Assembly: GCA_950054195.1 (NCBI GenBank)
Contig: CATLPG010000024.1
Span: forward strand, 1-42,563
Direction: 5' to 3'
Length of the DNA: 42,563 bases
From: an uncultured Saccharospirillaceae bacterium
Lineage (GTDB): Bacteria > Bacteroidota > Bacteroidia > Flavobacteriales_D > CAJJDF01
Shown here one piece after another: positions 2,746-39,955 of the stretch. The notes below the pieces were generated by a model. It searched no databases, had not been told where the DNA came from, and worked only from the letters and a program-made list of their open reading frames with translations. The position numbers and the translations under genes are program-made. Each line of letters begins with the position of its first letter. Position 1 is the first letter of the stretch.

Positions 2746-2770
2746 AGAAAAATTCTTTTCCGAAAATAAA

Positions 2771-2795: not shown

Positions 2796-2811
2796 AATAA
2801 TAAAAAGATTT

Positions 2812-5800: not shown

Positions 5801-6609
5801 TCTTCTGTACTTCCCGAATAAGTCGAAGCTAAAACTACTGGATCGATAATTAAATCATGAGATTTATCATATTCTCCAATGCTAAATGAAACTATGTTGT
5901 TTTGTAACACATACTCCCCTACTATTTCTTTTCGAACCCCATTAATTTCCTGGTAAATATATGGTGCTTGTTCAATTACATCACCTAAGGTTGTTTTGAC
6001 AATTAATTTACCATTACTGATGGATAAATTATCTTGTCCAGTAAATTTTAGGTTTATTAATCCTGCATTCGCTTGAGGATGAACAACAAAATCATACTTT
6101 AAATGGCCATTTGAACTATAATAGCTTACATCGATATTCGGATAAACATCAATTCCACTCACTTTAGAAAAAGAAGCAGCATTAGAAGCCCATTTAGACT
6201 GATCATTTCCTAAAAAGTAATTGTAATGATGATTGTTCTTTTGCTCAAATTCAAAACGATTAATCTCACCATTTACAAACGTTACATTATATGCATGTTG
6301 ATTGATTAACTGATTTTTTGAATTATGTTTGGGTCCTTCTTCATTATGATGTTCATCGTGATGAATTTCTCTTAATTTCTTAACATCATATAAATTGAAG
6401 GTATTTCCATTTTTATGAAGAAATACACTCCCTCCAACAAAATTACTTCTGAATTTCACCGATGGATGCCACTGCCCCTTGTTTTCAACAAATTCTAATG
6501 ACTGGGCTTGAAATTGCGTAAAAAATAAAATAACAAACAGACTAAGAGAAAATTTACCAAACAAGTTTTTAGTTTTTGTATTATCTATTTCAAACTTCAT
6601 GCCAATCAT
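2812..6609 (-). CDS. T9SS type B cargo: SBBP beta-propeller, PKD and Ig-like surface protein
   Basis: A predicted 1265-residue exported protein. After an unusually long N-terminus (a second ATG at codon 4 is possible) comes a signal peptide ending near FQAQS. The LEFVENKGQWHPSVKFRSN start of the mature protein is the hallmark of the DUF7948-type N-terminal domain in Bacteroidota. Residues about 260-690 carry SBBP-like beta-propeller repeats (recurrent STYLGGxxDD and SSNFPT motifs). A PKD domain with FWDFGDGS follows at about 716-800. Five tandem Ig-like units (about 800-1175) each open with a Cys and end in TTTYxV-like strands. The last ~85 residues form the type B sorting domain: VANAFTPDNDGHNDVF, then YIFNRWGDLLF and GWDGKF. 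It is expected to cross the outer membrane by T9SS and remain at the surface. Ligand unknown. It lies 161 bp downstream of the 1024-residue cargo gene. Confidence 0.93.
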   Translation of the reverse strand: MIGMKFEIDNTKTKNLFGKFSLSLFVILFFTQFQAQSLEFVENKGQWHPSVKFRSNFVGGSVFLHKNGNTFNLYDVKKLREIHHDEHHNEEGPKHNSKNQLINQHAYNVTFVNGEINRFEFEQKNNHHYNYFLGNDQSKWASNAASFSKVSGIDVYPNIDVSYYSSNGHLKYDFVVHPQANAGLINLKFTGQDNLSISNGKLIVKTTLGDVIEQAPYIYQEINGVRKEIVGEYVLQNNIVSFSIGEYDKSHDLIIDPVVLASTYSGSTEEIWGHTATYDDAGNIYSAGAGFSPGGLPTTMGAYQTSYQGSREMCIHKYNPDGSVLLYGTYLGGLDDDYPHSLYNYQGNLYVLGSSSSSNFPTTSSAYDQTYNGSSDIVVSKFSVNGFTLEGSTYVGGNDDDGTNSIYMNYGDDFRGEIVVDGSGNCYIASMTSSSNFPTSSAAYQSSLGGSQDGVTFKLNPSLSNLMFSTYLGGNNDDAAYGVKVGNGVVYVAGSASSNFLGTGGAFGYNGGMDGFLVAINQSGSSIQNKTYFGSSDDDQAFFVEIDLNQDVYILGQTEGVVSATSGKYNGGNGLFITKFNPSLTNRIYTTTTKEIAPIAFLVDDCGFIYASGHSGLGGLSGFDITPNAVQTSSGGFYLLGLTPDATTLNFGSYYGASDSHVDGGTSRFDKRGVIYQATCTDAGFPTLGNAWSMNQNGGGYDVTVFKIDFEISQIKAVGVPQPDTVGCAPYLANFSNTSGGNKYFWDFGDGSPVSNDKYPTHLYNNPGVYNIRLIAIDSISTCVKPDTAYMTLTVFAPDDSITVSNDTVVCNGNGVQLSVSGAATYEWSPAAGLSNPFSATPTANPTVTTTYRVIGTSMCNTDTAFVTVTVDGVAINIVDDTTICLGESANLWATGGSIYSWTPPSSLSDPLSSSTIATPSITTTYSVEVTNSLGCSSTEQVTVNVQQDLPNPISSADVTKCPSDQVIISSSGGDSYFWSSTEAITDPTNNQITAEANQTTTYYVDLTNACGTVQDTVIVFVQKPTLLTSPDKEVCFNDTIQLWVTGASSYAWSPSLKVDNPFNDTVNTMPIIPTTYTVVGTDSVGCMDTAIINIAISPIPELYIGEDQVINYGESVDLSPTYTPGEVSWSPEPTLHCIDCIDNVASPETTIPYVAFLEDQFGCIVSDTVIIGVDGAIYVANAFTPDNDGHNDVFYVKGEDITEYQLYIFNRWGDLLFESNDMNEGWDGKFKGEFVKLDTYVWRLIYSDINTTNEIKTGHVSVVR

Positions 6610-6770
6610 TGCTTTATCAACGTAATAATTAAAACAATAGTAAGAAAAGATTTATTAAGTTCATGTTAAGATGGATGGACAAAAGGGAATGTAAAACGTA
6701 TTCAATTGAAAAACATATATTTATGCCTGTTTTAAAATATTTCTTTTTAACAAGATTAACTTCTCTATGC

Positions 6771-9700
6771 TTATCTATATAAACTAAAATGACCGTCTAA
6801 AAATTGGTCATCGAAATTACCTTTAAAGCGATAAGTAATTTTATATAGATAAACGTCTTCTTTACACGCCTTACCATTGTATGTGCCATCCCAGCCTTTT
6901 CCCACGAGATCAGTAGTAAATAGCAACCTCCCCCACCTATTATATATTTCTAACTTATAGGATGCTACATTAGAAACAACTGGTACAAAAACATCATTTA
7001 GTCCATCATTATTAGGAATAAAGGCATTAGGCACGTAAATGAGGGACTCATCGAGAACATTTATTGTTGAGCAAGTAGTATCTGAGCATCCAAATGAGTT
7101 TATAACAGATAAACATAAATTATTTGCTCCAAGCACTGGAGGTAAAACAAGTTCTGGATTTAGAACCGAATCAACATAATTATTATTTAAAAACCAACTA
7201 TTGGTATCATTATCTGAAGAAGTATTTGTAACAGTCAATACATTTTCAAAGATACTAGGGTTTTTAGGTGCGTAATAAAAAATTGCTTCTGGTTTGTTTT
7301 GAACACTAATTGGAATAGTTAGCATATACTCAGCATTGCATTTGGCAGTAGAAACTTTGAATTTTGGAGTATAAGCGCCTGAATTTGTATAAACATAATT
7401 CACTGTATCACAATTATTAAATGCATTCCCATCTCCCATCGTCCACAAGCAATCTCCTCCAGTAAAACCTACTATATTTGGTATTAGTTGAACTTGTAAA
7501 GGTGCACATCCCGACAGAATATTCGATATAAAACTTACTGAATCTCCTGAAACCCTAACTGAAGTTGAATCACCTACATTAATACAACCATTGCCGTCAC
7601 TTACGGAAAAAACAGAATAAGTTCCCGTATCAGAAACGTAAGTTGTAAAGTTAGTCGATGTAATTCCAGAAAAGCCAACGGAAGAAGTTCCTCCATTATC
7701 ATAAGTAACATTCCATGGGCTAGCACCAGTAAATTGAATATTTAATGGAACAGAATCATTCAAACATAAATCTCCACCTCCACTAATTAACGAAGCCGTT
7801 GGCAAAGAAAAAACGTTAACAGTATCCCAGCTAGAGTCATTACATATCCCTGGCGTAACATATTTTAATATGTATGTACCACCTCCAGTTTCATTTATAA
7901 TTTCACCAGCGATTGAGTCTAAATATGCAGAATCGAATGGATTTTCAATTGAAAATGTTCCACCTGAAGAACCAGTAATGGTTGCCTGATTATTGGTTCC
8001 CAAACAAAAATCGGTTAGTTCAAAAAATGGATTTTCTTTCGATAAAACTTGGATTGGTTGAACGGTAGAATCAGGACATGTGCCACCTACACTATATTGT
8101 AAGTTATAGGTATTACCTAAGAAGGTATTCGTTAACACTCCTTTATTTGCGTTTACAAAAGCACCGTTAGAAGGTGGTAAAAGAGAAAAAACACCTCCTG
8201 CGGAACCCAATATAGTAACGGTATTTGAATCTCCTTCGCATATATCACTCGATACGAAATCTGCCGATGCCTCAAGTGCTGTTATAGTATCATAAACAGT
8301 GTCCAAACAAACAGCATGAGAAATGATATATGTTTCCCCTAGCTCTGGATTAATTATTTGCCCTGTACTTCCATTAATCAACGAAGAAGTGGAGTTATCT
8401 ACCAATGAAAATAAACCAGTATCGGCCAAAAACACAATATCATTTGTTTGTCCTTCACAAAAATCACTTGATGTGAAAGCCGCATCACCTGGGTTATTTA
8501 TAATTAATGTATCTTGAGTATTTAATACAGTAACACACCCTAGACTGTTTGTAATGGACAATGTTTTTATAATTGTATTCAAGGTAATTGGTATACGTAT
8601 GGTAAACCCATCTGTTAACTGATCAAACTCCAAGGTATCCCCATTAATTTCCGTTACCAAATCATAAGGACCGTAACAACCAGGTATATTTAAAACTGCA
8701 TCAGCACTATCACACCTACTACCTATAAGTTGCGTATTATAGATAACCGTATCCATTGGGTAAAGTTGGATGTTGTCCAAGAAGCCAAAAATAAAGTCCA
8801 GCCCTACGTAATTGTATGAATTACTCGTCCAAAAAGTAGAGGAGAAAACATTCCAATTATAATACAAATTAATCAAGCTTTTATCAATAATCGCCAACGT
8901 ATCGTATGCACCGTTTGTTGGCACGGAAGATGAATTACCAGCAGTTAGTACGAAATCTCTTGCATTTTGCTTAGTCCTCAGTGCTGAAAATTCAACTTTG
9001 TATTTTTGATTTTGACATAAATTTAAGAATTGGGTTATAGTCGGACCCAGACTCGATAAAAACACAAATCCGCTACCAGATGGAAACGGTTGCGGAGGTA
9101 TTTGATAATCACCAATCGGGTCACTCTGGTTTCGCCCTATATATTGTCCACAAACATTAAAATACCTAGGGGTCGAGACATTTTCATGATAGTTCCAATC
9201 AACTAGGAAGTTTATAATATCAGGATATGCAGTAGACCTATCTGGACAACTTGTATAATCCTCGAAATCTCCATTTGATATAAAATTGCAAGGGTGTTCA
9301 ATAAATTCATCAACACATCCAGACTGACTAACTTTAACTCCAATTTGTTTCCACGTTCGATCAACCCCACATTCTGGGTGGTACGTTATATTTCCACAGG
9401 AGTTATCTCTACTTCTGCCATCTTGAACCTCAATGCTAAAATCAAAAATAAAATTCCCTGTATCCAAATAAGAAACTGACCAGCAATAACCGTCCACCTT
9501 TGATATTGCAACACTATTAGGCATGTTTAAACAGGATAGCACTATTCTAAAATGGGCATTTTTATCACTTGGCGGACTAGGACAAGCCGAACTATAACTA
9601 GGAAAATTATCTGCATAGTAACAAGGACGAACACCTACATTGTTTGTTGGAGGATAAGACCATGCCTCTTCGGGTATCCGATCGTTCAAACAAATTAATT

Positions 9701-26145: not shown

Positions 26146-27108
26146 ATGGAAAAGAGGGGATATATATTATTACTTGTAGTTGCATTTTTTACGATAAATA
26201 GTTGGTCACAAGATCCTGAATTTACTCAGTTTTATGCTAATCAACTGTATTTAAACCCTGCTTTTGCAGGCTCACATAACTGTCCAAGAGTGAATCTTAA
26301 CTACAGGAACCAATGGCCAGGATTATCAGGCACATTTGTTACACATAGTGTTTCATACGATCAAGGTTTACGATTTATCAAAGGTGGAGGCGGTGGATTA
26401 CTAATTACAAATGATGTAGCCGCTAAAACATTATCAACCTTAAATGTATCAGGGATTTATGCTCAACAATTTCGGTTAACTAGAGACGTAAGTCTACGAT
26501 TTGGTGCTCAAGTTACCTATTACCAAAAAAAATTAGATTGGAACAAACTCACCTTTGGTGATATGATTGATCCTCGAAGAGGTTTTGTTTATCAAACAGC
26601 AGATGTACCAAGAGGAGGAAACACACGAGGTGTAGATTTTTCAGCTGGTGCTCTATTATTTAGCAAACGATTTTATGCTGGTATAGCCGTTCACCATTTA
26701 GCAGAACCTAATGAAAGCTTAGTTCAAGGAAATAGTCCATTACCTAGAAAGTATACAGGGCATGCGGGAGCGTTAATTCCATTATCCGAAAGTAAGTATA
26801 GTGATAATGATGCTCAAATTTCACCTAATATTTTGTTTCGTCAGCAAGGAACATTTCAACAGTTAAACTTAGGACTTTATGTTACTAAAGGAAGTTTTTG
26901 GGGAGGTGTTTGGTACAGAAATGCTGATGCCTTTATTCTCTTAGTTGGGTTACAATCAAATGGATTTAAAATAGGGTATAGTTATGATGTTACCACCAGT
27001 AAGCTAACTCTTGCTACTGCTGGATCACACGAAATTTCATTGGGGATGAACTTTACATGTAGACCTCCAATTAAACGATATCGAACAGTCAGTTGTCCAT
27101 CCTTTTAG
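26146..27108 (+). CDS. PorP/SprF-family type IX secretion outer-membrane protein
   Basis: A 320-residue PorP/SprF-family beta-barrel. Signal peptide ends near NSWSQ. The family signature follows directly: DPEFTQFYANQLYLNPAFAG, then NYRNQWPGL at about residues 22-62, with SVSYDQ soon after. The rest alternates short hydrophobic strands, as in a barrel. SprF-like proteins are needed for secretion and attachment of type B (gliding-motility-associated C-terminal domain) cargo and are usually encoded next to one. Here a type B cargo gene follows at 27232. A near -7 box (TAACTTTT at 26088-26095, last base differing from consensus) lies 51 nt upstream. Individual family names (PorP versus SprF) cannot be settled without phylogeny. 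Confidence 0.94.
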   Translation: MEKRGYILLLVVAFFTINSWSQDPEFTQFYANQLYLNPAFAGSHNCPRVNLNYRNQWPGLSGTFVTHSVSYDQGLRFIKGGGGGLLITNDVAAKTLSTLNVSGIYAQQFRLTRDVSLRFGAQVTYYQKKLDWNKLTFGDMIDPRRGFVYQTADVPRGGNTRGVDFSAGALLFSKRFYAGIAVHHLAEPNESLVQGNSPLPRKYTGHAGALIPLSESKYSDNDAQISPNILFRQQGTFQQLNLGLYVTKGSFWGGVWYRNADAFILLVGLQSNGFKIGYSYDVTTSKLTLATAGSHEISLGMNFTCRPPIKRYRTVSCPSF

Positions 27109-27118
27109 ACTGTTCGGT
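27080..27118 (+). repeat. inverted repeat spanning the porP/sprF-like stop codon
   Basis: CGAACAGTC (27082-27090) and GACTGTTCG (27108-27116) are perfectly complementary, extended by a T-G and an A-T pair, with a 17-nt loop. The stop codon TAG (27106-27108) is at the edge of the right arm. A terminator hairpin follows 15 nt later. It may protect the 3' end of the transcript or affect termination. Confidence 0.45.
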
Positions 27119-27132
27119 TGAAAGACCAGTAC

Positions 27133-27158
27133 AAAGGTCACCTTTACGGGTGGCCTTT
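27133..27158 (+). terminator. intrinsic terminator between porP/sprF-like gene and its cargo gene
   Basis: AAAGGTCACC (27133-27142) and GGTGGCCTTT (27149-27158) form a 10-bp stem (one G-T pair) with a 6-nt loop, followed by TGTGTTT. It is 25 nt after the stop. It lies inside the longest open frame of the next gene, which argues that the next gene starts later, at ATG 27232. Confidence 0.7.
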
Positions 27159-27231
27159 TGTGTTTAGAATTAATGCGCTAAGCCAAGCAACCAAGTCAAT
27201 CATTATTCGTATACTAGTTAAGAATTTAAAC

Positions 27232-30200
27232 ATGTACACGTTTATCCATAAAAATATTTCCTTAACAGCTTTGTTGTTATTGTTTTGCTTACCATTTTTC
27301 GGACAAGAAATTTGTGACAATGAAATAGATGATGACGGTGATGGCTATATAGATTATTTCGATTCTGATTGTGATTGTTTTACCGCTAACCGAACCAACT
27401 ATTATTACAGGTGTTCACAGAATCAAAATCCTTGTCAGTTTGTACCTCAACCCCAAATAGGCATACAAACTAAATGGCATGCCGTTATTGAAAATTACGG
27501 GGGGCGTGTAGTTCCATTAAGTGGTGATATCAATTCAGATGGTATAGTGGAGGTTGTAATTAATGGAACCAACCACTTAACAATATTTAATGCTAACGAT
27601 GGATCACAAATCCAAACAATACCATTACCAAACAGATTTATGGACTTTAGTGCTCCAGCCATGGCTGATGTTGATAGAGATGGCTTTGCTGAAATATTTG
27701 TTGGAGTTGCTGATTTTGTCATTCAGTGCTACAAAAATACTGGTACAGGCTACGCTTTACAGTGGGCAGATACCCTACAAGAAAGCAATAGAAACCCATC
27801 TATCATAGATTTTGATAATGACGGTATACCCGAACTGTTATGTGGTAACGTAATTATTGATCCTATCACTGGACAAACAATTATTGATGGAGGAACAGCA
27901 AACTCCTCTGGACAAGGTAGAGCTTCTGGAGCATGGTCGGTAGGAGCAGATGTTATTCCCGATTTAAATTGTACATATTGTACAGGGAAAGAACTTATTG
28001 CGGGTAATCAGGTTTACTCCGTTAATATAGATCGTGGAAATAATTTTATAGGAGCTAGTTTAACCATACACATGCAAATTGCTGAAGGAGATGGGAGAAC
28101 ATCCATTGCTGATCTTGATAAAGATGGTGATCTTGATGCTGTTATTACTAGAGGTAATGAAATTTATATTTGGGATTTACAAACTCCAACACTTTTAGCC
28201 CCAAAAATAACTGGTGGTGGTGCTCCATTTAGTAGTCATGTAAACATTGGTGACTTTAACAAAGATGGACTTATTGATATGGGAGTCGTTGGAAATAACC
28301 TTTACACCGTTTTAACCTTCGACAATGGGCTGTTAGATACTTTATGGCAAATTGCTACAACTGATGGATCTGGAATGACAGGTAGTACATTATTTGATTT
28401 TGATGCTGACGGCTCACAAGAAGTGGTATACCGTGATGAAACAGACTTAAGGATTATTGATGGGGCTACAGGTGTGGATAAAGTAACAATTCCTTGTACC
28501 TCTGGAACGAGAAACGAGTATCCAACAGTTGCAGATATTGATCAAGATGGAGAATCCGAAATTATGTGTGCCTGTGGAAACGGAATTACCGTTTTTGAGA
28601 CTGATGGTTCATCAACGTGGGCACCATCCAGAAAAGTATGGAATCAACATGCTTATTTCAATGTAAACATTAATGACGACTTAACAGTTCCCCTTGAACA
28701 GCAAAATCATGGAATTATTGAGGACTCCATAAAAATGAATACCTTTTTAACACAATATAGTGCACCCATTTTTATTTTGCCAAATGCTACAATTACAGCT
28801 ATTGATACTACCTGCTTGAATGATTCTATTACATTAACATTTAGTATTTGTAATGATCAATCTGTGTTAAGCGATTCATTACCAGTATCATTATTTTTAG
28901 GTGATCCTCGAGGTGCCCCCTCCTCTCCTATCCAAACTAAATATACAACTGGTGAGTTAATTGATTCTTCGTGTGAACAGCTCTTTTTTAGTATTCACCA
29001 AGATGATATTACTGATACGCTTTTTATCATAGGAAATGTTGATACTGGCACAATAATTATTCCTGATTTTAGCAATATTCCTCCAGCTAAAAATGCCGAG
29101 TGTAGTTATGAAAACAACGTTATAAGGTATTACCAAGAATATACTTACACCATACAAACTAAGGATGTTTCTTGTTTTGGAGGAAATGATGGTGAAATTA
29201 ACATTACTAGTACCAGAGATTATCTTTATTCCTTAGATGGAGGGCCAGGATACCCTGTAGGAGACTTTACTGGATTAATGGCTGATTCATTTGATATTAG
29301 AATTACTAATCCAGCGGGTTGTTTTAAAGATACTTCTGCTATTATTTTAGAGCCAGACACCTTAGAATCAACATTTACACAAACTGACATTAGCTGTTTT
29401 GGCTTTAATGATGGAGTAATAGATGTTACTACTACTGGAGGAACTACTCCGTATGATTACAGCCTTGATTATGGTATAACGAATCAATCAAGTCCTGTCT
29501 TTTTAAATTTAATAGCTGGAACTTATAATATACAAGTTACTGATAGTAACGGGTGTATTAATTTACTAAATACTACGTTAACAGAACCTCCTAAATTTTC
29601 TATATCTCTACCAGCTGATACTTGTATTCGTGATCAATTAGCGATTGGTCCTGAACTTGAAAATGGAATTTCACCTTTTACATACAACTGGTACGATGAT
29701 TTTTATATAAACAGTGTATCAAATGACTCAAACTTTATAACTAACCGATCCACTGATGTTTTGTATCGTTTAGTAGTTAGTGATAGTAGTAATTGTTTAG
29801 ATACCGCAGAAATACAAGTTAATGTGATACCACAAGCGAACTTTACAGTTGATACGAACCAACAATGTGAGCCAGCTTCTTTCTTATTTACTAATACATC
29901 AACTTACCAAAACCCGCTTAGTTGTATTTGGGATTTTGGGGATGGTATTACCATTAACAATTGTAACTCAGAAATAGCCAAAGACTATGATAGTGTTGGA
30001 GTATATACTGTAGAGCTAACTATCATTGAGAACAATGGTTGTGCTGATACCATCACTAGAACAGATACGGTAGCATCTAAAATAAAGCCAGTAGCTTATT
30101 TTAATTATTTTCCAAAAGATTTAATTTCTACTGTAGAGAATAAAATCTATTTTGATAATGAAAGTGTTGATGCGAACAGCTATGCTTGGACAGTAGATGG

Positions 30201-30612
30201 GGAGTCGGTTGCTATTACTCGCGACCTCACTTATGAGTTTGTTGACAACCCAACGCATACCTATGAAGTATGTTTGTATGTTGATACTGCTAGTTGCTAT
30301 GATATACATTGTGAAACCATCACTTTAACTCCCGATGTTATTATTTACTTGCCTAATACATTCTCTCCGAATGGTGATGGGATAAATGATATTTTTAGAG
30401 CAGAAGTTAATGGTAGAGAGAACCTAATTCTTGAGGATTTTATCATCAAAAATAGATGGGGACAAACTGTTTTCCAAACGAATAACATAGATAAAGGTTG
30501 GAATGGAGGCGATAATCCTATTATCGACACTTATGTTTGGAGAATAAAATATAAAGTTGATGAAACTACCGAGTCGGTTTATATCAATGGAATAGTTAAC
30601 TTAATAAAATAG
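27232..30612 (+). CDS. T9SS type B cargo: FG-GAP propeller, SprB repeats, PKD
   Basis: Start chosen at ATG 27232 because it gives a clean signal peptide (ISLTALLLLFCLPFFGQ). The upstream TTG at 27118 would add 38 residues encoded across a terminator. The product has 1126 residues. After the signal comes an Asp-rich calcium-binding-like stretch (CDNEIDDDGDGYIDYFDSDC). At about 98-440 are seven clear FG-GAP/VCBS motifs (DINSDG, DVDRDG, DFDNDG, DLDKDG, DFNKDG, DFDADG, DIDQDG), forming an integrin-like beta-propeller. Two SprB repeats (DVSCFGGNDGEI and DISCFGFNDGVI) lie at about 640-785. A PKD domain (IWDFGDG) is at about 880-945. The type B sorting domain ends the protein (YLPNTFSPNGDGINDIF, KNRWGQTVF, GWNGG). 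Encoded right after a PorP/SprF protein, the likely secretion partner. Confidence 0.93.
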   Translation: MYTFIHKNISLTALLLLFCLPFFGQEICDNEIDDDGDGYIDYFDSDCDCFTANRTNYYYRCSQNQNPCQFVPQPQIGIQTKWHAVIENYGGRVVPLSGDINSDGIVEVVINGTNHLTIFNANDGSQIQTIPLPNRFMDFSAPAMADVDRDGFAEIFVGVADFVIQCYKNTGTGYALQWADTLQESNRNPSIIDFDNDGIPELLCGNVIIDPITGQTIIDGGTANSSGQGRASGAWSVGADVIPDLNCTYCTGKELIAGNQVYSVNIDRGNNFIGASLTIHMQIAEGDGRTSIADLDKDGDLDAVITRGNEIYIWDLQTPTLLAPKITGGGAPFSSHVNIGDFNKDGLIDMGVVGNNLYTVLTFDNGLLDTLWQIATTDGSGMTGSTLFDFDADGSQEVVYRDETDLRIIDGATGVDKVTIPCTSGTRNEYPTVADIDQDGESEIMCACGNGITVFETDGSSTWAPSRKVWNQHAYFNVNINDDLTVPLEQQNHGIIEDSIKMNTFLTQYSAPIFILPNATITAIDTTCLNDSITLTFSICNDQSVLSDSLPVSLFLGDPRGAPSSPIQTKYTTGELIDSSCEQLFFSIHQDDITDTLFIIGNVDTGTIIIPDFSNIPPAKNAECSYENNVIRYYQEYTYTIQTKDVSCFGGNDGEINITSTRDYLYSLDGGPGYPVGDFTGLMADSFDIRITNPAGCFKDTSAIILEPDTLESTFTQTDISCFGFNDGVIDVTTTGGTTPYDYSLDYGITNQSSPVFLNLIAGTYNIQVTDSNGCINLLNTTLTEPPKFSISLPADTCIRDQLAIGPELENGISPFTYNWYDDFYINSVSNDSNFITNRSTDVLYRLVVSDSSNCLDTAEIQVNVIPQANFTVDTNQQCEPASFLFTNTSTYQNPLSCIWDFGDGITINNCNSEIAKDYDSVGVYTVELTIIENNGCADTITRTDTVASKIKPVAYFNYFPKDLISTVENKIYFDNESVDANSYAWTVDGESVAITRDLTYEFVDNPTHTYEVCLYVDTASCYDIHCETITLTPDVIIYLPNTFSPNGDGINDIFRAEVNGRENLILEDFIIKNRWGQTVFQTNNIDKGWNGGDNPIIDTYVWRIKYKVDETTESVYINGIVNLIK

Positions 30613-30639
30613 AGAAATCTTATTCTTTCTCTATTTTAT
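30604..30639. terminator. bidirectional terminator containing both convergent stop codons
   Basis: A 14-bp perfect stem (30604-30617 with 30626-30639) and an 8-nt loop. The plus-strand stop (30610-30612) lies in the left arm and the minus-strand stop (30620-30622) in the loop. Both sides have A/T tracts. The last codons of both genes therefore form the terminator stem. Confidence 0.75.
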
Positions 30640-32812
30640 CAAACGCTTTAATTAGTTTGTTTACTTTTGATTCAAGCCTATCGTTTCTTTTACTTTCTTT
30701 AGCTAGCTTTTCTTCAAGCTCTTTTTTCTCTTTATTAAGCTTGATAATGTGTAAATAAAGCTCCTCAATTTTTTCTAAGTTTTTTAATGACGATTGAGTT
30801 ATGTTAAAGTTACCCGTTTGCTTTATTTCTTTAGCAGATGGAATTCCAGGAAGGTGTCCTTTTTCTTTTGTGAAATTTTCAATTTCTTCTAGTGATTTAA
30901 ACTCGTAATCAGCTTTGAGGTTAGATTCTCCTTTATAATACTTTTCAAAAACATAATCAGGAACGGTTAGTGTAGTTGCACCTGAGATAAAGTTTCCGGA
31001 GGCACGGATGTTACCGTTTACGTCTAAACGTTCAGTTGGATTTGGAAAACCTATTCCTACATTTTCATTAGATAAGTCTATCGATAAAGAAGTTGTTACC
31101 GTTGGTTGACCTAGGTGTAATTTACCCGTATTATCAATCCAAAGCCCTCCGCTAGAACCACTTGTAGCATTTCTCATTTCGATACCAGTATGACTTCCAA
31201 TAACATCATCATATCTAATTGCAACGAAAGAAGTATCATTCCCTATTCTTGCATTACCTTTCTGTACGTTAAGTCTAGCAACAGGGCTAGTTGTTCCTAT
31301 TCCCACATTTGCTGTACTCCCTTTGATATAAATAGCTGTATCTGAGGCTACATGAAATTGCATGGATGCTGCTAAAGACGGGTTTCTACTAAACACAACT
31401 AATGAACCTGGAGCAGTTTCTAGTCCATGATTTGTACTAAAAGTATAAAATTTACCAGCTCTTATTTCACCAGCGTTGGTTGCATCTAAATCATGTTCTG
31501 GATCATTTGTTGCTACTCCAACTCTATCTCCAACTAGCGACATGGTTGGGTTAGTTGATAAGTTAGACCTTTGGAAATACAACCTTCCTTGATCAGTTGA
31601 ATCTGGAGAGGTTATATAAAACTCATTAGATCCATTTGATCTAATTCTTAGAAATGGACCATCAGGATCTATGATAGTTGCACCTGTTCTTAATGCATCT
31701 GCTACCTCTGTGGCATCACCAATTTGTAATCTATTTGCTGGGAAATTAGTTCCTATCCCAACATTACCTGAACCTCTAATTGCTAATGCAGTTTCTTTGA
31801 TATTATCATTACCTGTATTTATAAAGTATACTCCTCCATCAGGGTTCACTTGATTCCCGTCTGTTTTCTCAATAATTAAGGCATCGTTTGATCCATTAGG
31901 GAAGTCATGTTTATAATATATTTTGGCTCTATCAGCAGATACAGCACTGTTTCTAGGAATTGCACCTGTAAAACCTATCCCAGCCGTGTCATTTAACTGT
32001 ATACCTCCTCCTTGAAGTTCTAATAGTTCTGAAGGAGATGAAGTTCCAACACCTACAAAACCAGTATCAGTAATACTCATTCTTCTTTGTGCAATCGGTC
32101 CATCATCAACATCTGTTGTATAAAAACCAATAGAAGACCCTTGACTTGATCTTGAAGCTACTTGTAAATCAACACCGTTATTAATGATTTGTGCTTCATC
32201 TTCATTATCTATTACTCCAGCAGTACTGTAACCTAATGTTAATCTGGGTGTATTATCTCCAACTGAAACTCGGTTAGGCTGTGTTATTATGCCATTTAAC
32301 GCACTTATTGAATGCGTATTATCATATACTGCCCCTGTAAGTCTTTGTCCTACTCTTAGTCTTCCACTATTATCAATAAACGTTGTATCTCCACTCAACA
32401 TAGCTTTTCTAGCATATATATTCCCTGAAGTTAATCCTACACTTGCTCCATCAATCCATTCTGAACTATCTTGAACGATATACCCATCTTGTGAAGTAAT
32501 GAACTTAACCCACTCACTCACCACAGTGTCCCAATAATAAAGTCCGGTATCAACAGCAGTCGTTCCTGTACCAGCAGCAGTTGTATTAAACACAACTAAA
32601 CTGTGTGCCGGTGAAACAACAGGAGCTGAAATATTTTTAGCTGTTAATGCTATTCTAGGAACAAGAATTCCTTTGGTAGTTGCCTCAGCATCTAGTATAG
32701 CAGATGCATCTGGTGTACGATTAATATTAGCTTCATCTACTTTTATTCCTGTTTGGGCTATGGCGTAATTACCAATTAGCAAAATGACAATAGCTACTAA
32801 TAGTTTATTCAT
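30620..32812 (-). CDS. tail-fibre-like secreted protein with coiled-coil C-terminus (paralogue 3 of operon)
   Basis: A 730-residue protein with a signal peptide ending near NYAIAQ. The N-terminal module (about 20-115) is shared with the two upstream genes: PDASAILDAEATTKGILVPR, then GLYYWDTVVSEWVK. The middle is a series of beta repeats with GxVGIGTxxP motifs, as in phage-fibre-like bacterial proteins. One stretch (RLNVQKGNARIGNDTSF to LHLGQPTV) is also present in the 1577-residue protein. The C-terminal ~125 residues have a conserved module (VPDYVFEKYYKG, then FTKEKGHLPGIPSAKE) that recurs in Bacteroidota fibre-like proteins, then a Lys/Glu-rich coiled coil. No T9SS sorting domain. Its ATG overlaps the stop of the preceding gene (TAATG), so translation is coupled. 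Likely trimeric surface or matrix fibre; function unknown. Confidence 0.85.
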   Translation of the reverse strand: MNKLLVAIVILLIGNYAIAQTGIKVDEANINRTPDASAILDAEATTKGILVPRIALTAKNISAPVVSPAHSLVVFNTTAAGTGTTAVDTGLYYWDTVVSEWVKFITSQDGYIVQDSSEWIDGASVGLTSGNIYARKAMLSGDTTFIDNSGRLRVGQRLTGAVYDNTHSISALNGIITQPNRVSVGDNTPRLTLGYSTAGVIDNEDEAQIINNGVDLQVASRSSQGSSIGFYTTDVDDGPIAQRRMSITDTGFVGVGTSSPSELLELQGGGIQLNDTAGIGFTGAIPRNSAVSADRAKIYYKHDFPNGSNDALIIEKTDGNQVNPDGGVYFINTGNDNIKETALAIRGSGNVGIGTNFPANRLQIGDATEVADALRTGATIIDPDGPFLRIRSNGSNEFYITSPDSTDQGRLYFQRSNLSTNPTMSLVGDRVGVATNDPEHDLDATNAGEIRAGKFYTFSTNHGLETAPGSLVVFSRNPSLAASMQFHVASDTAIYIKGSTANVGIGTTSPVARLNVQKGNARIGNDTSFVAIRYDDVIGSHTGIEMRNATSGSSGGLWIDNTGKLHLGQPTVTTSLSIDLSNENVGIGFPNPTERLDVNGNIRASGNFISGATTLTVPDYVFEKYYKGESNLKADYEFKSLEEIENFTKEKGHLPGIPSAKEIKQTGNFNITQSSLKNLEKIEELYLHIIKLNKEKKELEEKLAKESKRNDRLESKVNKLIKAFDKIEKE
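30740..31015 (-). repeat. paralogous C-terminal module, copy in the 730-residue gene
   Basis: This segment is nearly the same at DNA and protein level as 32905-33185 in the neighbouring gene (both encode ASGNFISGATTLTVPDYVFE and FTKEKGHLPGIPSAKE). The sequences between the conserved ends of the two genes are much less alike. Duplication or gene conversion is likely. Confidence 0.6.
32511..32755 (-). repeat. paralogous N-terminal module, copy in the 730-residue gene
   Basis: Matches 34908-35152 in the next gene with few differences by eye; both encode PDASAILDAEATTKGILVPR and DTGLYYWDTVVSEWVK. It marks the start of the mature protein in both paralogues. Confidence 0.65.
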
Positions 32813-35202
32813 TATTTATCTTGTTTTAGGATGAGTTCTTTTAATTCTTTGAGCTCTTTTTCTTGAGTATCTAATCTTTTTTGAAGCTCTTGTTTTTCTT
32901 TATTTATTTTGATTACATGCAAATATAACTCTTCAATTTTCTCTAAGTTATTTAATGACGATTGAGTCACATTGAATTGGTCTTTTTCTGTTACTTCTTT
33001 AGCTGATGGAATTCCTGGAAGATGTCCTTTTTCTTTAGTGAAATTTTCAATTTCTTCTAATGATTTGAATTCATAATCAGCTTTAAGGTTAGACTTGCCT
33101 TTGTAGTAGGTTTCAAATACATAATCGGGAACTGTTAGTGTAGTTGCCCCTGAGATAAAGTTTCCTGATGCTCGGATGTTACCAATTACATCAAGTTTTT
33201 GTGATGGAACTAACACACCAATACCTACATCTCCTGCACCAGTAATTCTCATTTGAGCAGTTCCGAATTCGGTAGTGTTATTAGCAGCAGTATAAAAATA
33301 GATTGATGTTGCAGCATTTGCTGAATCTGTTCCTCCTCCAATCAAAACTGAATTCGTAGCTACATCTGCCTCACCACCAATAAGAGCCATAGGTTCTTCA
33401 GCGATTGTATAATGAGTTACTCCAATGTTTCCTCCTTTTACAGTTGCATCTCCGGTTTGATCTGCTAATTCAAGAACAACATCATTATTAATTGTGGAAA
33501 CAACATTTAACTTACTTGTTGGAGTAATTGTTCCAATACCTACATTTGAATTAGAGCTGATGTACATCATTGGATCTGTATTATCACCAATGTTAACTCT
33601 AAATTCCATTGCTCCTTTTAATGGATTAGGTGAAGCATCAGTAATGATTCCTCTTATAGAAGCTATTCTATTATTATCAGATAATATTGCTCCATTAGCT
33701 TCAGTTACAAAATTCAAACCTGACGTATTACCAATAGCTTCATTCGTAGATCTAATTAGCATGTTTGCCCCAGTAACCTGCGATACTTCTAAAATTTCTA
33801 CAGGGTTAGTTGTTCCTATCCCTACATTTCCTCCCCCAGAATTTATCAATAACTCAGCAGTCCCAGAAGCATTTGCATCAATTCTACCGTTATTTGAAGC
33901 ATCCATCCATAGTCGTAATCCAGTGGTAGCTGCACTATTTAGTATAGCTAACCCTGCATTACTATTATCTGCTTGTTGGTTAATTTGAACTAAACCAAAG
34001 GTTGGATTATTAGTACCTACGCCTAAAGCTCCTCCATCAGTAAAAACTAATGTAGAATCTTGGGTAGCATCTTCATCAGCTACTACTTGGAATTTACCAA
34101 CAGGTGTATTGGTAAATATTCCAACTCCTTGTTGACCGCTAGCTATAGTTAATATATCGGAGAAGTCACCGAATCCATTATGCTCCCTAAAAATAAACCC
34201 TCCATCTTGATGAACATTATTACCATCTAGAGCGTCAAAAACGAGCCAATCGTCAGCTGTTCCTGTAACAGAATTTTCTGTTAAAATACGAAAATGACCA
34301 TCTGGACCAACTTGATTGGCAGAGTTTCCAACGGGATTTGGCCCTAACTCTAGGTGAATCCTTTGATTGGGATCATCTGTTGTTAACTCACCTCTTAAAC
34401 GACTTATCCCATTAACAACTAATAGTTCTTCAGGAATCGCCATTCCAACCCCCACTTTTCCATTTGTATCTATCCTCATTCTAATACTTGAGCCCAAAGG
34501 ACCAGTCGTTAAAAAATCTAAGGTAGAGTATCCATTAGTATGGTCTAGAATTTTAGCTCCAATAATACTTGAAGCATTACCTGAACCTCCATTTCCATTA
34601 AACCAAATGGAACTATAGTTGCCGTTAGTTGGGTCATCATTAGAAATTACCAAAGCATTATTTGAAGCTGATATTCCCGTAGAAGAAGAAGAACTATTGA
34701 ACAAAGCTACATTCGAAGTGTTACCGTCAATATGAAGTATACTTGCGGGGTTATTGTTACCTATCCCCATTCTTCCATTATCTCTGACTACTACATCATT
34801 TCCACCTTGGTTTGCTTTTCGTGCAAAAATATATGCACCAGCATCAACCCATTCTGAGCTATCAGCTAATAAATAATTATCTTGCGAGGTTATTAGTTTA
34901 ACCCACTCACTAACAACAGTGTCCCAGTAATAAAGACCGGTATCAACAGCAGTTGTTCCTGTACCCGAAGCAGTTGTATTAAATACAATCAAACTATGTG
35001 CTGGTGAAACAACAGGAGCTGCTATATTTTTGGCTGTTAATGCTATTCTAGGAACTAGAATCCCCTTGGTAGTTGCCTCAGCATCTAGTATAGCAGATGC
35101 ATCTGGTGTTCTATTTACATTTGCTTCATCTACTTTAATACCTGTTTGAGTAAATAAACTAAAACTGGTCATCGTGATAAGAAATATTAAGGCTGTTTTC
35201 AT
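32812..35202 (-). CDS. tail-fibre-like secreted protein with coiled-coil C-terminus (paralogue 2 of operon)
   Basis: A 796-residue protein with a signal peptide (MKTALIFLITMTSFSLFTQ). The N-terminal module and C-terminal module are close copies of those in the 730-residue protein encoded next. The middle differs and is again rich in GNVGIGTTxP and GRMGIGNNNP turns. The C-terminus repeats VPDYVFETYYKG and GHLPGIPSAKE and ends in a coiled coil (LDTQEKELKELKEL). It has no T9SS sorting domain, no transmembrane anchor and no S74 domain. It is 19 bp after the 1577-residue gene and overlaps the following gene by one base. I infer a trimeric fibre; the C-terminal module could be a folding/trimerisation unit, which is not established from this sequence. 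Confidence 0.85.
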   Translation of the reverse strand: MKTALIFLITMTSFSLFTQTGIKVDEANVNRTPDASAILDAEATTKGILVPRIALTAKNIAAPVVSPAHSLIVFNTTASGTGTTAVDTGLYYWDTVVSEWVKLITSQDNYLLADSSEWVDAGAYIFARKANQGGNDVVVRDNGRMGIGNNNPASILHIDGNTSNVALFNSSSSSTGISASNNALVISNDDPTNGNYSSIWFNGNGGSGNASSIIGAKILDHTNGYSTLDFLTTGPLGSSIRMRIDTNGKVGVGMAIPEELLVVNGISRLRGELTTDDPNQRIHLELGPNPVGNSANQVGPDGHFRILTENSVTGTADDWLVFDALDGNNVHQDGGFIFREHNGFGDFSDILTIASGQQGVGIFTNTPVGKFQVVADEDATQDSTLVFTDGGALGVGTNNPTFGLVQINQQADNSNAGLAILNSAATTGLRLWMDASNNGRIDANASGTAELLINSGGGNVGIGTTNPVEILEVSQVTGANMLIRSTNEAIGNTSGLNFVTEANGAILSDNNRIASIRGIITDASPNPLKGAMEFRVNIGDNTDPMMYISSNSNVGIGTITPTSKLNVVSTINNDVVLELADQTGDATVKGGNIGVTHYTIAEEPMALIGGEADVATNSVLIGGGTDSANAATSIYFYTAANNTTEFGTAQMRITGAGDVGIGVLVPSQKLDVIGNIRASGNFISGATTLTVPDYVFETYYKGKSNLKADYEFKSLEEIENFTKEKGHLPGIPSAKEVTEKDQFNVTQSSLNNLEKIEELYLHVIKINKEKQELQKRLDTQEKELKELKELILKQDK
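32905..33185 (-). repeat. paralogous C-terminal module, copy in the 796-residue gene
   Basis: Partner of 30740-31015. The same peptide strings are encoded with scattered, mainly synonymous base changes. Confidence 0.6.
34908..35152 (-). repeat. paralogous N-terminal module, copy in the 796-residue gene
   Basis: Partner of 32511-32755. Long identical runs include the stretch encoding LVPRIALTAKNI. Confidence 0.65.
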
Positions 35203-35221
35203 TTTGTCTTTTTTGGGAGGA

Positions 35222-38200
35222 TTACTTAGTACCTAAATCTTGCTTATTAAGCATAAGCTTGATTTGCTCCAATTCACTTTTTAACTGGTTGTAATTTTGT
35301 TTTAATTCTTGATTTTCTATCTCAAGTTGCTTTACAGATTGCTTAACGGTTGTATTCTCAGCTTTAAATGAATTATTTTCTTTTTTAAGTGCTTCGATTT
35401 GCTCTTGTTGCTCTTTTACTGCTTCAATAAGTATTGGTGTGAATTTGCTATAATCAACTGCTTTATATCCTGTTTTTTCGTTTGTATTCACTAATTCAGG
35501 ATATACTTTTTCAACTTCTTGAGCTATTACACCTATTTGAATACCATCACCAAAACCTTTTTCTTTGTATTCTTCTTTCATAAAATAGTTTACCCCTCTT
35601 AACTTCATTAGTTTTTCTAAGGTATTATCAAGTGTGTGTATGTCTCTTTTGTATCTTCTATCAGAAGAAACAATTGTACCACTAGCCAAAATATTCCCAA
35701 CTACTTCTAGTTTTTCAGCTGGTGAATCAGTACCAATTCCAGTATAACCATTAAAATAGTTAGTATCATTTGCACCTCCTTGATAAATCCCATATTGCAT
35801 GGTAGCTCCAACATCATTAATAAACACCCCATAACCTGTATCAATAGAACCAGCTCCATTATTGAAAATACCAATACTAATGCCATATGCTGCTGATATG
35901 ATTCCAGTTGATTCATTATCCACTTGATTATGTGAGCCGTAAGCTTCAGTAATATTTCCTGTATTTAAGTTTTCGGATAAGTTTACTGCTCCATAGTTAT
36001 TTTCTATTGTTGCGGTAGGACTGTTATTTTGTCCAAAATTATAGGCTCCATGATTAAATGTAATATCACCAGTGGCACCTGGGTTATTAGTAGATAAATT
36101 ATATCCTCCAATTTGATTACTTACTGTACCGATTGAAAGGTTATCAGCTCTATTGTATGCACCCCACATTTGGGTTGCTACTCCTCCACCATTATGCTGA
36201 GCTAAGTGGTAACCACCACCTATAAGTTGTGAATTATTTGCTCCTGATTGTATCAAATAATCTAAATCTGCAAAATTTGCTCCTGTTGCTGCAGCTGCTG
36301 GTGCAAACGTAGTTCGTGTATATGAAGAATAATTGTTACCTGCAATTAAATCACTCTGATTATCTTCAACATGAAAAATATACAATGGAGCTTCTGTTCC
36401 TATACCTACACTTCCACTCTCCAGAACAGTTAATGTTGAATCAATTGTACCATCAAAATCAGTTGTAATTTGGAATCTTCCAGTAGGGTTTAATGTTCCC
36501 ACACCTACTCTTCCCCAGTTACTTCCATTTCCAGCCACATGTATTCCTGGTTTATCTACAGTTGTTAGTGATGAAGCTAAACCAATCCCATTTCCATCGG
36601 CTTGAGTAATGAATCCAAAATTGCCATTCATATTCGAGTCTAGTGCAATATTACCACCTCTAACAGAAAGTCTATCGGTTGTTGAATTAGCCCCAATTGT
36701 AACATTTCCTAATGTAAAAATATCTTCACTATTACTTGTTGGCGGCTCATTGGTTACTCTACTATACCAATCATGATCTTCTATACTATCTCTTAGAGAG
36801 TTTACAATACTGTCGTATGGCAATTTTTGAACTGTTCCATTAATATTACTTGTTAAGATATTTGAGATATCTGTGGTATCGTTGATTGTTCGGATACGAG
36901 CTTCTCCATTTACATCTAAACGATGGGTGGGATTTGTTGAGCCAATAGCTAAATAACCCAAACTATCTAATCTCATTTTTTCCGCAGAAACACCTCCATT
37001 AGCAGTATAAAACAATAGATTTCCATTAATTCCATCTCCTGTATTTCCGGTTACCTGAGCCATTTCGACACCTTGAGACTCGAAACTTAATACAGATCCA
37101 TTTGCAGGAGGACCGACATTATTGATAATAATTCTTGCTTCCGTCATATTAATCCCTTCAATATGAAGACGTGCATCAGGGGTTTCAGTTCCAATTCCAA
37201 CTCTTCCGTTATCAGTAAGTATGAAAGTTGAGTCAATTGTCCCATTTTGATCCAATGATACTTGAAATTTACCTTGTGGGTTATTAGTTCCTACCCCAAC
37301 TCTTCCCATTGTATAAATTGTATCATTTATACTGGTTGGAGCAGCATTTGTATTTACATTATAAAAATCATGATCTTCGATACTATCTCTTAGAGAGTTT
37401 ACAATACTGTCGTATGGTAATTTTTGAACTATGCCATTAATATTACTTGTTAAGATATTTGAGATATCTGTGGTATCGTTGATTGTTCGGATACGAGCTT
37501 CTCCGTTAACATCTAAGCGATGGGTGGGTGTTGTAATTCCTAAACCAACATCCCCAATATTATTTACTCTTATTCTTTGATTCCCTGAACCATCTGCAAT
37601 TATAATCGTGTTGCTTAAGCTAGAGTCGGCTGCTGCAGACCCGATTTGAGCTCCTATAAATGTATTATTACTACCTTGTCTTAAAAAACCTCCGCTATTA
37701 AATCCAACTATTGTATTAAAGTTTGCTGTAGTAGTATTTCTTGCTCCTGACCGACCAATAATTGTATTACCATTTCCATTATTAGACATAAGAGTACTAT
37801 GACCAATAGCAATATTATTATTCCCTGATTGATTACTCCTTAGTGCCACATAACCTATTGCCACATTGTCTACTCCTGATGTATTTCCTTGCATAGCAAA
37901 AGAACCAATTGAAATATTAGCTCCAGCAGATAAATTATTTGATAATGACGCATACCCTAATGCCACGTTATTTCCTCCAGAAACATTGCTTGTTAATGCT
38001 CCAGCACCTAAAGCTACGTTATTTGCACCTATATCATTCATTCGTAAAGCTCCAGCCCCAACTCCTGTATTATTTACCCCGGAAGTAGTATTATTTAGTG
38101 ATCTGAAGCCAAGTCCAGTATTAGCATTACCGGTAGTAATACTGTCTAAGGCAAAATTACCAATTGCTGTATTATTTACAAGATCATTATTACCTCTACC

Positions 38201-39955
38201 TACTCTTACTCCATTAAAGGAAGCATCGCTGTTTGCTCCGCTAGTTTCTAGCATCCAATTGGGGTTGTTTGTACCGATTCCAACATAACCATTAGTATAA
38301 ATTGTATCATTTATACTGGTTGGAGCAGCATTTGTATTTACATTATAAAAATCATGATCTTCGATACTATCTCTTAGAGAGTTTACAATACTGTCGTATG
38401 GTAATTTTTGAACTACTCCATTAATATTACTTGTTAAGATATTTGAGATATCTGTGGTATCGTTGATTGTTCGGATACGAGCTTGTCCATTAACGTCTAA
38501 GCGATTGGTAGGTGTTGTAGTTCCTAAACCTATATCATGCGTTATCAGGTCAATCGTAAGTTGATTTGAGATTGTAGGTTGACCTAAATGCATTTTAGCC
38601 AAATTATCCAACCAAAGCCCACCTGATGTTCCAGAATTGGCATTTCTCATTTCGATACCAGTATTAGTTCCTGTTATGTCACTATACCTTAAACTTATAA
38701 AAGACGTATCATTACCTACTCTAGCATTTCCACCTTGAACATTTAATGAAGCTAAAGGACTATTTGTTCCTATACCAACATTCCCCATCGTATATATTGT
38801 ATCAGTTATATTTGCAGGAGCTAAATTTGTGTTTATATTAAACCAATCTCGATCTCTTAATCCGCTTAAGTCAACTGTGTCAATCACACCATCTTCATTT
38901 ACATAAGAAAATGATGAATCTCCTATTTGAGAAACAAATGTTACTGTTTCCACACTATCGACCATAGCTTTTACATCAAGTAATGTGGTATCGCCATTCT
39001 CATCTACATAACTAATTGTGGAATCTGTATTGAATACCTCTGTTACGGTTTCTACGCTATCTACCATTGCTTGAACATCTATAACAGTCGTATCTCCGTT
39101 TTCGTCTACATAACTGATCGTGGAATCTGTATTGAATATCTCTGTTACGGTTTCTACGCTATCCACCATGGCTTGAACATCTATTACAGTGGTATCCCCG
39201 TTTTCATCTACATAACTGATCGTGGAATCTGTATTGAATATCTCTGTTACGGTTTCTACGCTATCGACCATAGCTTTTACATCAAGTACTGTAGTATCTC
39301 TGTTTTCATCTACATAACTAATCGTGGAATCTGTATTGAATACCTCTGTTACGGTTTCTACGCTATCTACCATTGCTTGAACGTCAATTAAAGTGGTATC
39401 TCCGTTCTCATCTACATAACTGATTGTGGAATCTGTATTGGTTAAACTGGTTAGAATATTAACTGAATCTCTCAGCCACTTTAATGTAGTATCATTAGTT
39501 ACTAAATTATTAGCTATAGTTGTATAAAATAAGGAGTCATTTGCTATACCAATTAAATTTGCACTAGCAGAATTACCATCTTCTATATAAACAGTTATTG
39601 TTGTTCCATTAATTGTTACAGAATCAATATTTTGATCATCAGAACCACTTGATGACATTCTTAACCACTTAGTTGAATCTGAGCTCCAGTAGTAATAACC
39701 TTCATAAACGGTATCATTACCAGCCCCAGCAGCTCCAATATTAAACACCAATAAACTTTGCACTGGTGATGGCACAGTTACCACATCATTAACATCCGTG
39801 AGTTGTATTCTGGGTATTAATATTCCTTTATCAGGGTAATCAACCTCTAATCCTGCTGATGGATCTGGATTGCCCACTGTAGGCGCAATTTTTACACCTT
39901 GAGCAAAATTTTGAACACTTAAAATGATGAAAGTCAGAAATACTATTTTTTTCAT
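35222..39955 (-). CDS. large secreted fibre protein with S74 intramolecular-chaperone domain (first gene of operon)
   Basis: A 1577-residue protein. Signal peptide ends near QNFAQ; the N-terminal module (about 19-95) is distantly like that of the two downstream proteins (GILIPRIQLTD, then GYYYWSSDSTKWL). Residues about 172-341 are five near-identical 34-residue repeats. Residues about 595-775 are head-type repeats (NNVALGYASLSNN, DNVAIGYVALRSN) like the left-handed roll of YadA-type trimers. A block encoding YDSIVNSLRDSIEDHD occurs three times. From about 1428 the S74 chaperone domain reads VSSDRRYKRDI, IGVIAQEVEKVYPELV and VDYSKFTPILIEAVKE. Ser1431 precedes Asp, and Lys is five residues on, matching the Ser/Lys autocleavage dyad known from endosialidase chaperones. 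A coiled coil (about 1510-1577) ends the protein. No T9SS domain. Likely a trimeric surface fibre; target unknown. Confidence 0.88.
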   Translation of the reverse strand: MKKIVFLTFIILSVQNFAQGVKIAPTVGNPDPSAGLEVDYPDKGILIPRIQLTDVNDVVTVPSPVQSLLVFNIGAAGAGNDTVYEGYYYWSSDSTKWLRMSSSGSDDQNIDSVTINGTTITVYIEDGNSASANLIGIANDSLFYTTIANNLVTNDTTLKWLRDSVNILTSLTNTDSTISYVDENGDTTLIDVQAMVDSVETVTEVFNTDSTISYVDENRDTTVLDVKAMVDSVETVTEIFNTDSTISYVDENGDTTVIDVQAMVDSVETVTEIFNTDSTISYVDENGDTTVIDVQAMVDSVETVTEVFNTDSTISYVDENGDTTLLDVKAMVDSVETVTFVSQIGDSSFSYVNEDGVIDTVDLSGLRDRDWFNINTNLAPANITDTIYTMGNVGIGTNSPLASLNVQGGNARVGNDTSFISLRYSDITGTNTGIEMRNANSGTSGGLWLDNLAKMHLGQPTISNQLTIDLITHDIGLGTTTPTNRLDVNGQARIRTINDTTDISNILTSNINGVVQKLPYDSIVNSLRDSIEDHDFYNVNTNAAPTSINDTIYTNGYVGIGTNNPNWMLETSGANSDASFNGVRVGRGNNDLVNNTAIGNFALDSITTGNANTGLGFRSLNNTTSGVNNTGVGAGALRMNDIGANNVALGAGALTSNVSGGNNVALGYASLSNNLSAGANISIGSFAMQGNTSGVDNVAIGYVALRSNQSGNNNIAIGHSTLMSNNGNGNTIIGRSGARNTTTANFNTIVGFNSGGFLRQGSNNTFIGAQIGSAAADSSLSNTIIIADGSGNQRIRVNNIGDVGLGITTPTHRLDVNGEARIRTINDTTDISNILTSNINGIVQKLPYDSIVNSLRDSIEDHDFYNVNTNAAPTSINDTIYTMGRVGVGTNNPQGKFQVSLDQNGTIDSTFILTDNGRVGIGTETPDARLHIEGINMTEARIIINNVGPPANGSVLSFESQGVEMAQVTGNTGDGINGNLLFYTANGGVSAEKMRLDSLGYLAIGSTNPTHRLDVNGEARIRTINDTTDISNILTSNINGTVQKLPYDSIVNSLRDSIEDHDWYSRVTNEPPTSNSEDIFTLGNVTIGANSTTDRLSVRGGNIALDSNMNGNFGFITQADGNGIGLASSLTTVDKPGIHVAGNGSNWGRVGVGTLNPTGRFQITTDFDGTIDSTLTVLESGSVGIGTEAPLYIFHVEDNQSDLIAGNNYSSYTRTTFAPAAAATGANFADLDYLIQSGANNSQLIGGGYHLAQHNGGGVATQMWGAYNRADNLSIGTVSNQIGGYNLSTNNPGATGDITFNHGAYNFGQNNSPTATIENNYGAVNLSENLNTGNITEAYGSHNQVDNESTGIISAAYGISIGIFNNGAGSIDTGYGVFINDVGATMQYGIYQGGANDTNYFNGYTGIGTDSPAEKLEVVGNILASGTIVSSDRRYKRDIHTLDNTLEKLMKLRGVNYFMKEEYKEKGFGDGIQIGVIAQEVEKVYPELVNTNEKTGYKAVDYSKFTPILIEAVKEQQEQIEALKKENNSFKAENTTVKQSVKQLEIENQELKQNYNQLKSELEQIKLMLNKQDLGTK
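36771..36931 (-). repeat. dispersed intragenic repeat, copy 3 of 3
   Basis: Encodes the YDSIVNSLRDSIEDHD region and the preceding RLDVNGEARIRTINDTTDIS stretch, nearly base-identical to 37368-37528 and 38352-38512. Confidence 0.7.
37311..37531 (-). repeat. dispersed intragenic repeat, copy 2 of 3
   Basis: Longer version of the block at 36771-36931, including the following segment encoding NVNTNAAPTSINDTIYT. Nearly identical to 38295-38515. Confidence 0.7.
37640..38180 (-). repeat. YadA-like head-repeat region in the 1577-residue protein
   Basis: About eight protein repeats of 21-24 residues follow the pattern GNNNxAxGxxALxxNxxG (for example NTGLGFRSLNNTTSG and NNIAIGHSTLMSN). The DNA copies have diverged more than the 102-bp array. 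The pattern fits a left-handed parallel beta-roll in a trimer. Confidence 0.6.
38295..38515 (-). repeat. dispersed intragenic repeat, copy 1 of 3
   Basis: Same block as 37311-37531. One difference is Gln in place of Glu in NGQARIRT. Confidence 0.7.
38933..39442 (-). repeat. 102-bp tandem repeat, five copies, in frame
   Basis: Five consecutive 102-bp units (510 bp) encode the 34-residue unit beginning NTDSTISYVDENGDTT and continuing VQAMVDSVETVTE. Long runs are base-identical between copies. Variants are confined to a few codons (for example ENG to ENR in the second unit, IDVQ versus LDVK). A degenerate sixth unit (FSYVNEDGVIDTVDLSG) follows. The unit length keeps the reading frame. Confidence 0.92.

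Follow-up and report, generated by a model that had tools for sequence, protein, structure and literature searches.

Three consecutive genes on the minus strand of the 42,563-nucleotide stretch of DNA analysed here (the window) encode secreted, fibre-like proteins, and they raise the question of what such proteins do on a bacterial chromosome and whether they belong to a known kind of system. The first-pass annotation inferred a chromosomal fibre or matrix system and named it as a candidate for an undescribed one. The genes are transcribed in the order P0003, P0002, P0001 (39955 to 30620; Table 1). A gap of 19 bp separates the first two, and one base is common to the stop codon of P0002 and the start codon of P0001 (CATTA on the plus strand); the spacing originally described is thus borne out by the ORF coordinates.

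Table 1. Features of the three fibre genes in window coordinates
Feature	Position	Strand	Residues or length	Remarks
P0003, first operon gene	35222..39955	-	1577 aa	Fibre with S74 end
P0003 signal peptide	39902..39955	-	1-18	Mature start Q19
P0003 N-module	39653..39901	-	19-101	Profile search
P0003 five near-identical 34-aa tandem repeats, NTDSTISYVDENGDTTVIDVQAMVDSVETVTEVF	38936..39439	-		
P0003 shaft, eight VGIGTxxPxxxL capping-loop-like motifs	36371..38779	-		8 versus 0.06 expected in shuffles
P0003 YadA-head-like NNTAIGNFAL repeats	37586..38176	-		phrog_23837 and phrog_4636 match here
P0003 S74 intramolecular chaperone/self-cleavage domain, SDRRYK	35489..35665	-		PF13884; PDB 6f45, MyRF 7dc3
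P0003 C-terminal coiled coil	35246..35428	-		Heptad-like sequence; weak coiled-coil family matches
P0002	32812..35202	-	796 aa	Fibre with V end
P0002 N-module	34891..35148	-	19-104	Profile search
P0002 shaft, six capping-loop-like motifs	33190..34770	-		Bdellovibrio Bd2133 match, PDB 8ond E 3e-4
P0002 V module	32881..33132	-	691-774	
P0001	30620..32812	-	730 aa	V-ended fibre
P0001 N-module	32498..32755	-	20-105	Profile search
P0001 shaft, five capping-loop-like motifs	31022..32056	-		PDB 8ojn E 0.0045, 8ol4 E 0.011
P0001 V module	30713..30964	-	617-700	AF2 mean pLDDT 86.8; alignment
P0001 long C-terminal V helix, likely coiled coil	30659..30802	-	671-718	AF2 model

All three proteins open with a hydrophobic signal peptide, and Q is the residue predicted to start the mature protein, as is usual after signal-peptide cleavage in Bacteroidetes (PMC5837995). 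Among 240 complete V proteins (defined below), 191 start signal-peptide-like, 182 of these with Q. In agreement with the annotation, a common module of about 85 aa lies directly after the signal peptide (N-module; profile E 1e-32 to 1e-35); it is 94% identical between P0001 and P0002. The AF2 model of the P0001 N-module had a mean pLDDT of 78. The N-module had no PDB match by sequence or by fold search, and no significant cover in Pfam, NCBIfam or PHROG.

The C-terminal ends are of two kinds. As annotated, P0003 ends in a Peptidase_S74 domain (PF13884, E 1.2e-16; 61.1 bits versus the Pfam gathering cut-off of 22). Like other members of this family (endosialidase, T5 LTF and MyRF), it has the SDxxxK catalytic dyad, kept as SDRRYK, and a terminal coiled coil; the Ser and Lys are present in all S74 copies of this genome. 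P0001 and P0002, in contrast, gave no match to PF13884 and end in VPDYVF...HLPGIPSAKE, here called the V module. That these two proteins have this module in common, as first noticed, is confirmed by an identity of 83–85%; with 9 copies in the genome and hundreds elsewhere, the module is far beyond chance. The shafts of the two proteins are 31% identical. Ends that are kept while the shafts diverge are the pattern expected if specificity sits in the shaft. The coiled coil reported at the V ends is present, but it also follows S74 in P0003 and is therefore not what separates the two kinds of end. The 34-aa tandem repeats of P0003 are likely variable in copy number.

The shafts point to a known system. 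The motif VGIGTxxPxxxL occurs 5, 6 and 8 times in P0001, P0002 and P0003, respectively (<0.1 expected from shuffles). At the thresholds used, a PDB sequence search with the whole proteins returned only mosaic adhesive trimer (MAT) fibres of the predator Bdellovibrio, MyRF and the long tail fibre of a phage (6f45). The MAT chains among the best hits of the shafts were 8ond (E 3e-4), 8ojn, 8ol4 and 8oml, with matches that are weak in bits (17–22) and in part driven by repeats. The Bd2133 alignment reaches the joint directly before the V module of P0002, and in the matches to MAT chains the shaft end AGNVGIGATAPTAKLEVAGTIHSTS aligns with AGDVGIGVLVPSQKLDVIGNIRASG, directly ahead of the C-terminal module. 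The fibres of the MAT superfamily of Bdellovibrio bacteriovorus are secreted trimers. A constant N-domain follows their signal peptide, their β-helix shaft carries VGxxxxPxxxL-type capping loops, and one Bdellovibrio genome holds 13 S74 and 8 non-S74 ends (PMC10769870). The trio is likewise chromosomal and secreted, with a constant part after the signal peptide; capping-loop-type motifs and a matching shaft are seen in it at the level of sequence, and S74 and non-S74 ends occur together in its genome (13 + 9). The differences are that the host belongs to Bacteroidota, that the genes form an operon, and that the N-module, a possible homologue at most, has ~85 aa where the Bdellovibrio N-domain has ~130 aa. 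Moreover, the non-S74 end of the trio is the helical V, whereas MAT tips are β-sandwich, TNF-like or C-type lectin domains; a V-type end is not among the tips in the main text of the MAT paper (PMC10769870). V genes elsewhere also often lie beside T9SS cargo genes. The MAT superfamily is the closest known system, and from its sequences the trio can be read as secreted, MAT-like adhesive trimers whose two kinds of C-terminal module are interchangeable. With this precedent, most of the claim of an undescribed system falls; what stands is the V module, for which no description was found.

V is absent from Pfam, NCBIfam and PHROGs, and the string HLPGIPSA had no match in a literature text search. 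Within the reach of these searches, the module is widespread and undescribed. It was C-terminal in all 267 proteins collected, with a following tail of median 14 aa (maximum 56), and never occurred together with S74 in one protein (0/267). Residues D25, V27, Y42, H59, L60, P61, K87, E89, E90 and L93 of a 125-aa fragment are conserved. The AF2 model of this fragment, based on 80 sequences, has a confident helical fold, in which three short helices precede a 48-residue terminal helix (77–124). Foldseek searches with the model gave no match in PDB; in BFVD the hits were a protein of a giant virus (probability 1.00, E 6e-3) and, as a weak one, a protein of an uncultured phage. The S74-type domain of MyRF trimerises by a collar-plus-coiled-coil design (PMC8326128), of which the modelled V, with its terminal helix, is reminiscent. 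The shaft ends in front of V and of S74 are of one kind, and this common layout suggested that V might be a degenerate S74. That idea was rejected: the cores alone show no homology (hhalign probability 0.8%, with 9 of 60 column-permuted controls scoring equally high), and the 95% probability obtained by profile comparison of longer regions is due to the common shaft end and coiled coil. The V alignment has no conserved Ser–Lys pair at the position of the S74 dyad.

Among viral contigs, a profile scan detected V at 28 loci, some of which are bacterial signal-peptide genes at prophage edges; a single-sequence scan of viral contigs and tblastn of 50,697 GenBank phage records gave no V match. Three of the contigs (L213, L217 and L222) are from true phages, uncultured and contractile-tailed. 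There, V ends long proteins without signal peptides, and their genes adjoin those of the tail sheath, tail tube or baseplate wedge. V is thus used at tail-fibre ends, the place taken elsewhere by S74, and the notion that V is confined to bacteria was discarded. In L213 the sequence ...SPAQKLEVVGNISASG...NVPDYVFEPEYRL...HLPGIPS... forms nearly the same joint as in the window proteins. By analogy, this occurrence is the strongest argument that V would fold or cap a fibre trimer. The L213 gene (positions 3–8315) is one reading frame of at least 2770 aa, apparently encoding a giant tail fibre. The trio also resembles the fibres of contractile-tailed phages in its PHROG tail-fibre matches, but its proteins have signal peptides and its genes lie among housekeeping genes, with no virion genes.

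One flank of the trio consists of purC, large type B T9SS cargo, M16 peptidase genes, rsgA, a PorP/SprF gene and a type B cargo gene, and the other of uvrB and gldA; the neighbours are not phage genes, as the first-pass annotation stated. Near the trio no phage or eCIS genes were found, nor tail or baseplate genes together with the three genes, and the tail sheath family PF04984 had no match in the genome. The signal peptides and the lack of a sheath support the description of a chromosomal, secreted, fibre-like system that is neither phage nor eCIS. In the genome, V occurs in 9 genes and S74 in 13, and the N-module has 16 matches. The 22 V or S74 genes are scattered over the chromosome, several clusters combine both kinds of end, and the trio is one of the clusters that make up a large paralogous family. 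Conserved synteny of the operon, proposed as a check, was not found: all five same-family genomes compared have another secreted gene (~1260 aa) behind gldA-uvrB and lack the trio there, which makes the operon accessory. Since the slot after uvrB holds the fibre trio here and a different secreted protein in the five relatives, this site could be a hot spot for genes of secreted proteins. The ~1260-aa protein has a type-A-like end. Promoter and terminator scans gave results at chance level.

In the window (26146–30612), the PorP/SprF gene is followed by a type B cargo gene that is convergent with the trio, with 7 bp between their coding ends. The CHU_C type B sorting domain has 75 matches in the whole 3.3-Mb genome, indicating a very T9SS-rich secretome; 5 of 13 fibre clusters lie within 7 kb of type B cargo versus ~3 expected, which is not significant. 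At another locus (L059, 851–7016), a gene for an N-module protein without S74 or V precedes an S74 fibre gene and a type B cargo gene, and a third kind of fibre end may therefore exist.

Here, we propose that the trio are probably Sec-exported, homotrimeric adhesive fibres of the MAT kind, located at the surface or outside the cell, in which the C-terminal module, S74 or V, nucleates the trimer. Export would start with Sec, and the steps after it are drawn from the relatives. The constant N-module would sit beside the cell, and the repeat shaft would form a trimeric β-helix whose variable stretches offer binding surfaces. The C-terminal module would start the folding and set the register of the trimer, in the periplasm or outside the cell. 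In P0003, S74 would fold the trimer and then cleave itself off at the Ser of SDRRYK. In P0001 and P0002, V would act at the same joint as a helical cap, with its C-terminal coiled coil and collar helices starting and closing the trimer. V most likely stays on the mature fibre because it lacks the Ser–Lys dyad. The mature fibres may then be displayed or released at the surface, with the variable shaft faces binding. The trio would have arisen by duplication, in which the ends were kept and the shafts diversified into a repertoire of binding specificities. We infer trimerisation by V, its retention, passage through the outer membrane, surface location and adhesion by analogy with these known fibres.

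Surface fibres determine what a bacterium adheres to. If the proposal is right, Bacteroidota can hold large repertoires of phage-like adhesive fibres (22 V or S74 genes here), comparable to the fibres by which a predator recognises its prey. A fibre-end module that is widespread but absent from three family libraries could be named, modelled and tested, and many Bacteroidota proteins now labelled hypothetical or cell wall anchor would gain a function. The MAT-like architecture was already known, and V is the new part as far as these searches reach. A bolder combination, which we consider doubtful, holds that V is a second, S74-independent class of trimerisation cap exchanged between phages and bacteria, and that V fibres also exit via T9SS with neither a type A nor a type B domain, perhaps accompanied by the cargo of neighbouring genes.

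The alternative that survives best is that V itself serves the T9SS as an export signal of a third kind, a helical C-terminal domain replacing type A or B. Of the 296 Bacteroidota genomes sampled, 56 (19%) carry V, with up to 15 copies per genome; all 56 have SprA, and none of the 69 SprA-negative genomes has V (Fisher p 8e-8). However, the SprA-negative genomes are nearly all of one family, which makes the association phylogenetically weak, and S74 has the same pattern (87/88). The invariably C-terminal position of V fits an export signal, and so does its neighbourhood. At least two V genes occur in 38 of 80 loci. A V gene shares its strand with the gene after it in 65 of 74 cases, and the two lie within 100 bp in 54. 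Type A cargo is next downstream at 22/74 loci, versus 8/74 at the first upstream and 4/43 at the third downstream position. TIGR04183 is matched by 20 of 47 large downstream ORFs, and the families in these 47 genes include Por_Secre_tail, GCX_COOH, YD/RHS repeats and subtilases. The trio, too, is secreted by a member of the phylum of T9SS cargo proteins, but the absence of type A or B T9SS domains, membrane anchors and barrels stated in the first-pass annotation held in Pfam and NCBIfam searches of all three proteins. Beyond this phylum, a wider scan found V in >550 loci; most of these are in Bacteroidota, and small numbers in Ignavibacteria, Calditrichaceae, Kapaibacterium and proteobacterial MAGs. 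Against an export signal, V occurs on complete plasmids of Leisingera and Haliovirga; neither the phylum of Leisingera nor Fusobacteriota, to which Haliovirga belongs, is known for T9SS. A Rhodobacter MAG and a Lysobacterales MAG have V but no SprA was found in them, although misbinning is possible. V also ends phage tail fibres that have no signal peptide. Known T9SS sorting domains are Ig-like β-sandwiches, whereas V is helical in the AF2 model. A functional tie of V to T9SS secretion is possible, but we regard its role as the export signal as unlikely.

It is quite unlikely that the proteins stay in the periplasm as structural or scaffold components and are never exported through the outer membrane. 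Searches of Pfam and NCBIfam recognised no outer-membrane export signal or anchor in them, as such a location would have it. Their size (the longest has 1577 aa) and long fibre shaft, the likeness to surface-displayed MATs and the position of V genes beside secreted cargo genes in other genomes argue against it.

The first-pass annotation had proposed that the three proteins form mixed heterotrimers or a common matrix, and the operon layout and the nearly identical ends of P0001 and P0002 are in keeping with this. Intertwined β-helices, however, need matching registers, and the P0001 and P0002 shafts have diverged too far in sequence to favour them. Because the S74 and V cores are unrelated, a C-terminal nucleus common to P0003 and the other two is unlikely. 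V genes elsewhere are often solitary or in V-only clusters. Mixed trimers of all three proteins appear unlikely from their sequences, and we give the proposal as a whole only a slim chance.

Finally, it is highly improbable that the trio consists of prophage tail-fibre genes, domesticated or in decay, or of eCIS or tailocin fibre genes, despite the PHROG matches and the use of V and S74 in real phage fibres, since the frames are long and intact with signal peptides, the many V or S74 genes are spread over a chromosome without a tail sheath, the neighbours are housekeeping and T9SS genes, and the trio N-terminus is a signal peptide with the N-module, not the eBAP baseplate anchor borne by eCIS fibres (PMC12923769).

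An RHS neighbourhood was considered as a general rule for V and rejected, as it was seen for only 9 of the 47 downstream ORFs and is absent at the window. V-gene clusters lie upstream of giant YD-repeat/RHS-like genes at six loci (L080, L087, L116, L135, L180 and L182), in Pedobacter, Flavobacteriaceae, Fulvivirga and Imperialibacter and on plasmids of Haliovirga and Amniculibacterium; a fibre plus RHS secretion module is possible there. On the complete plasmid of Haliovirga abyssi (L180, 3728–9470), five consecutive V genes are located downstream of a secretin gene.
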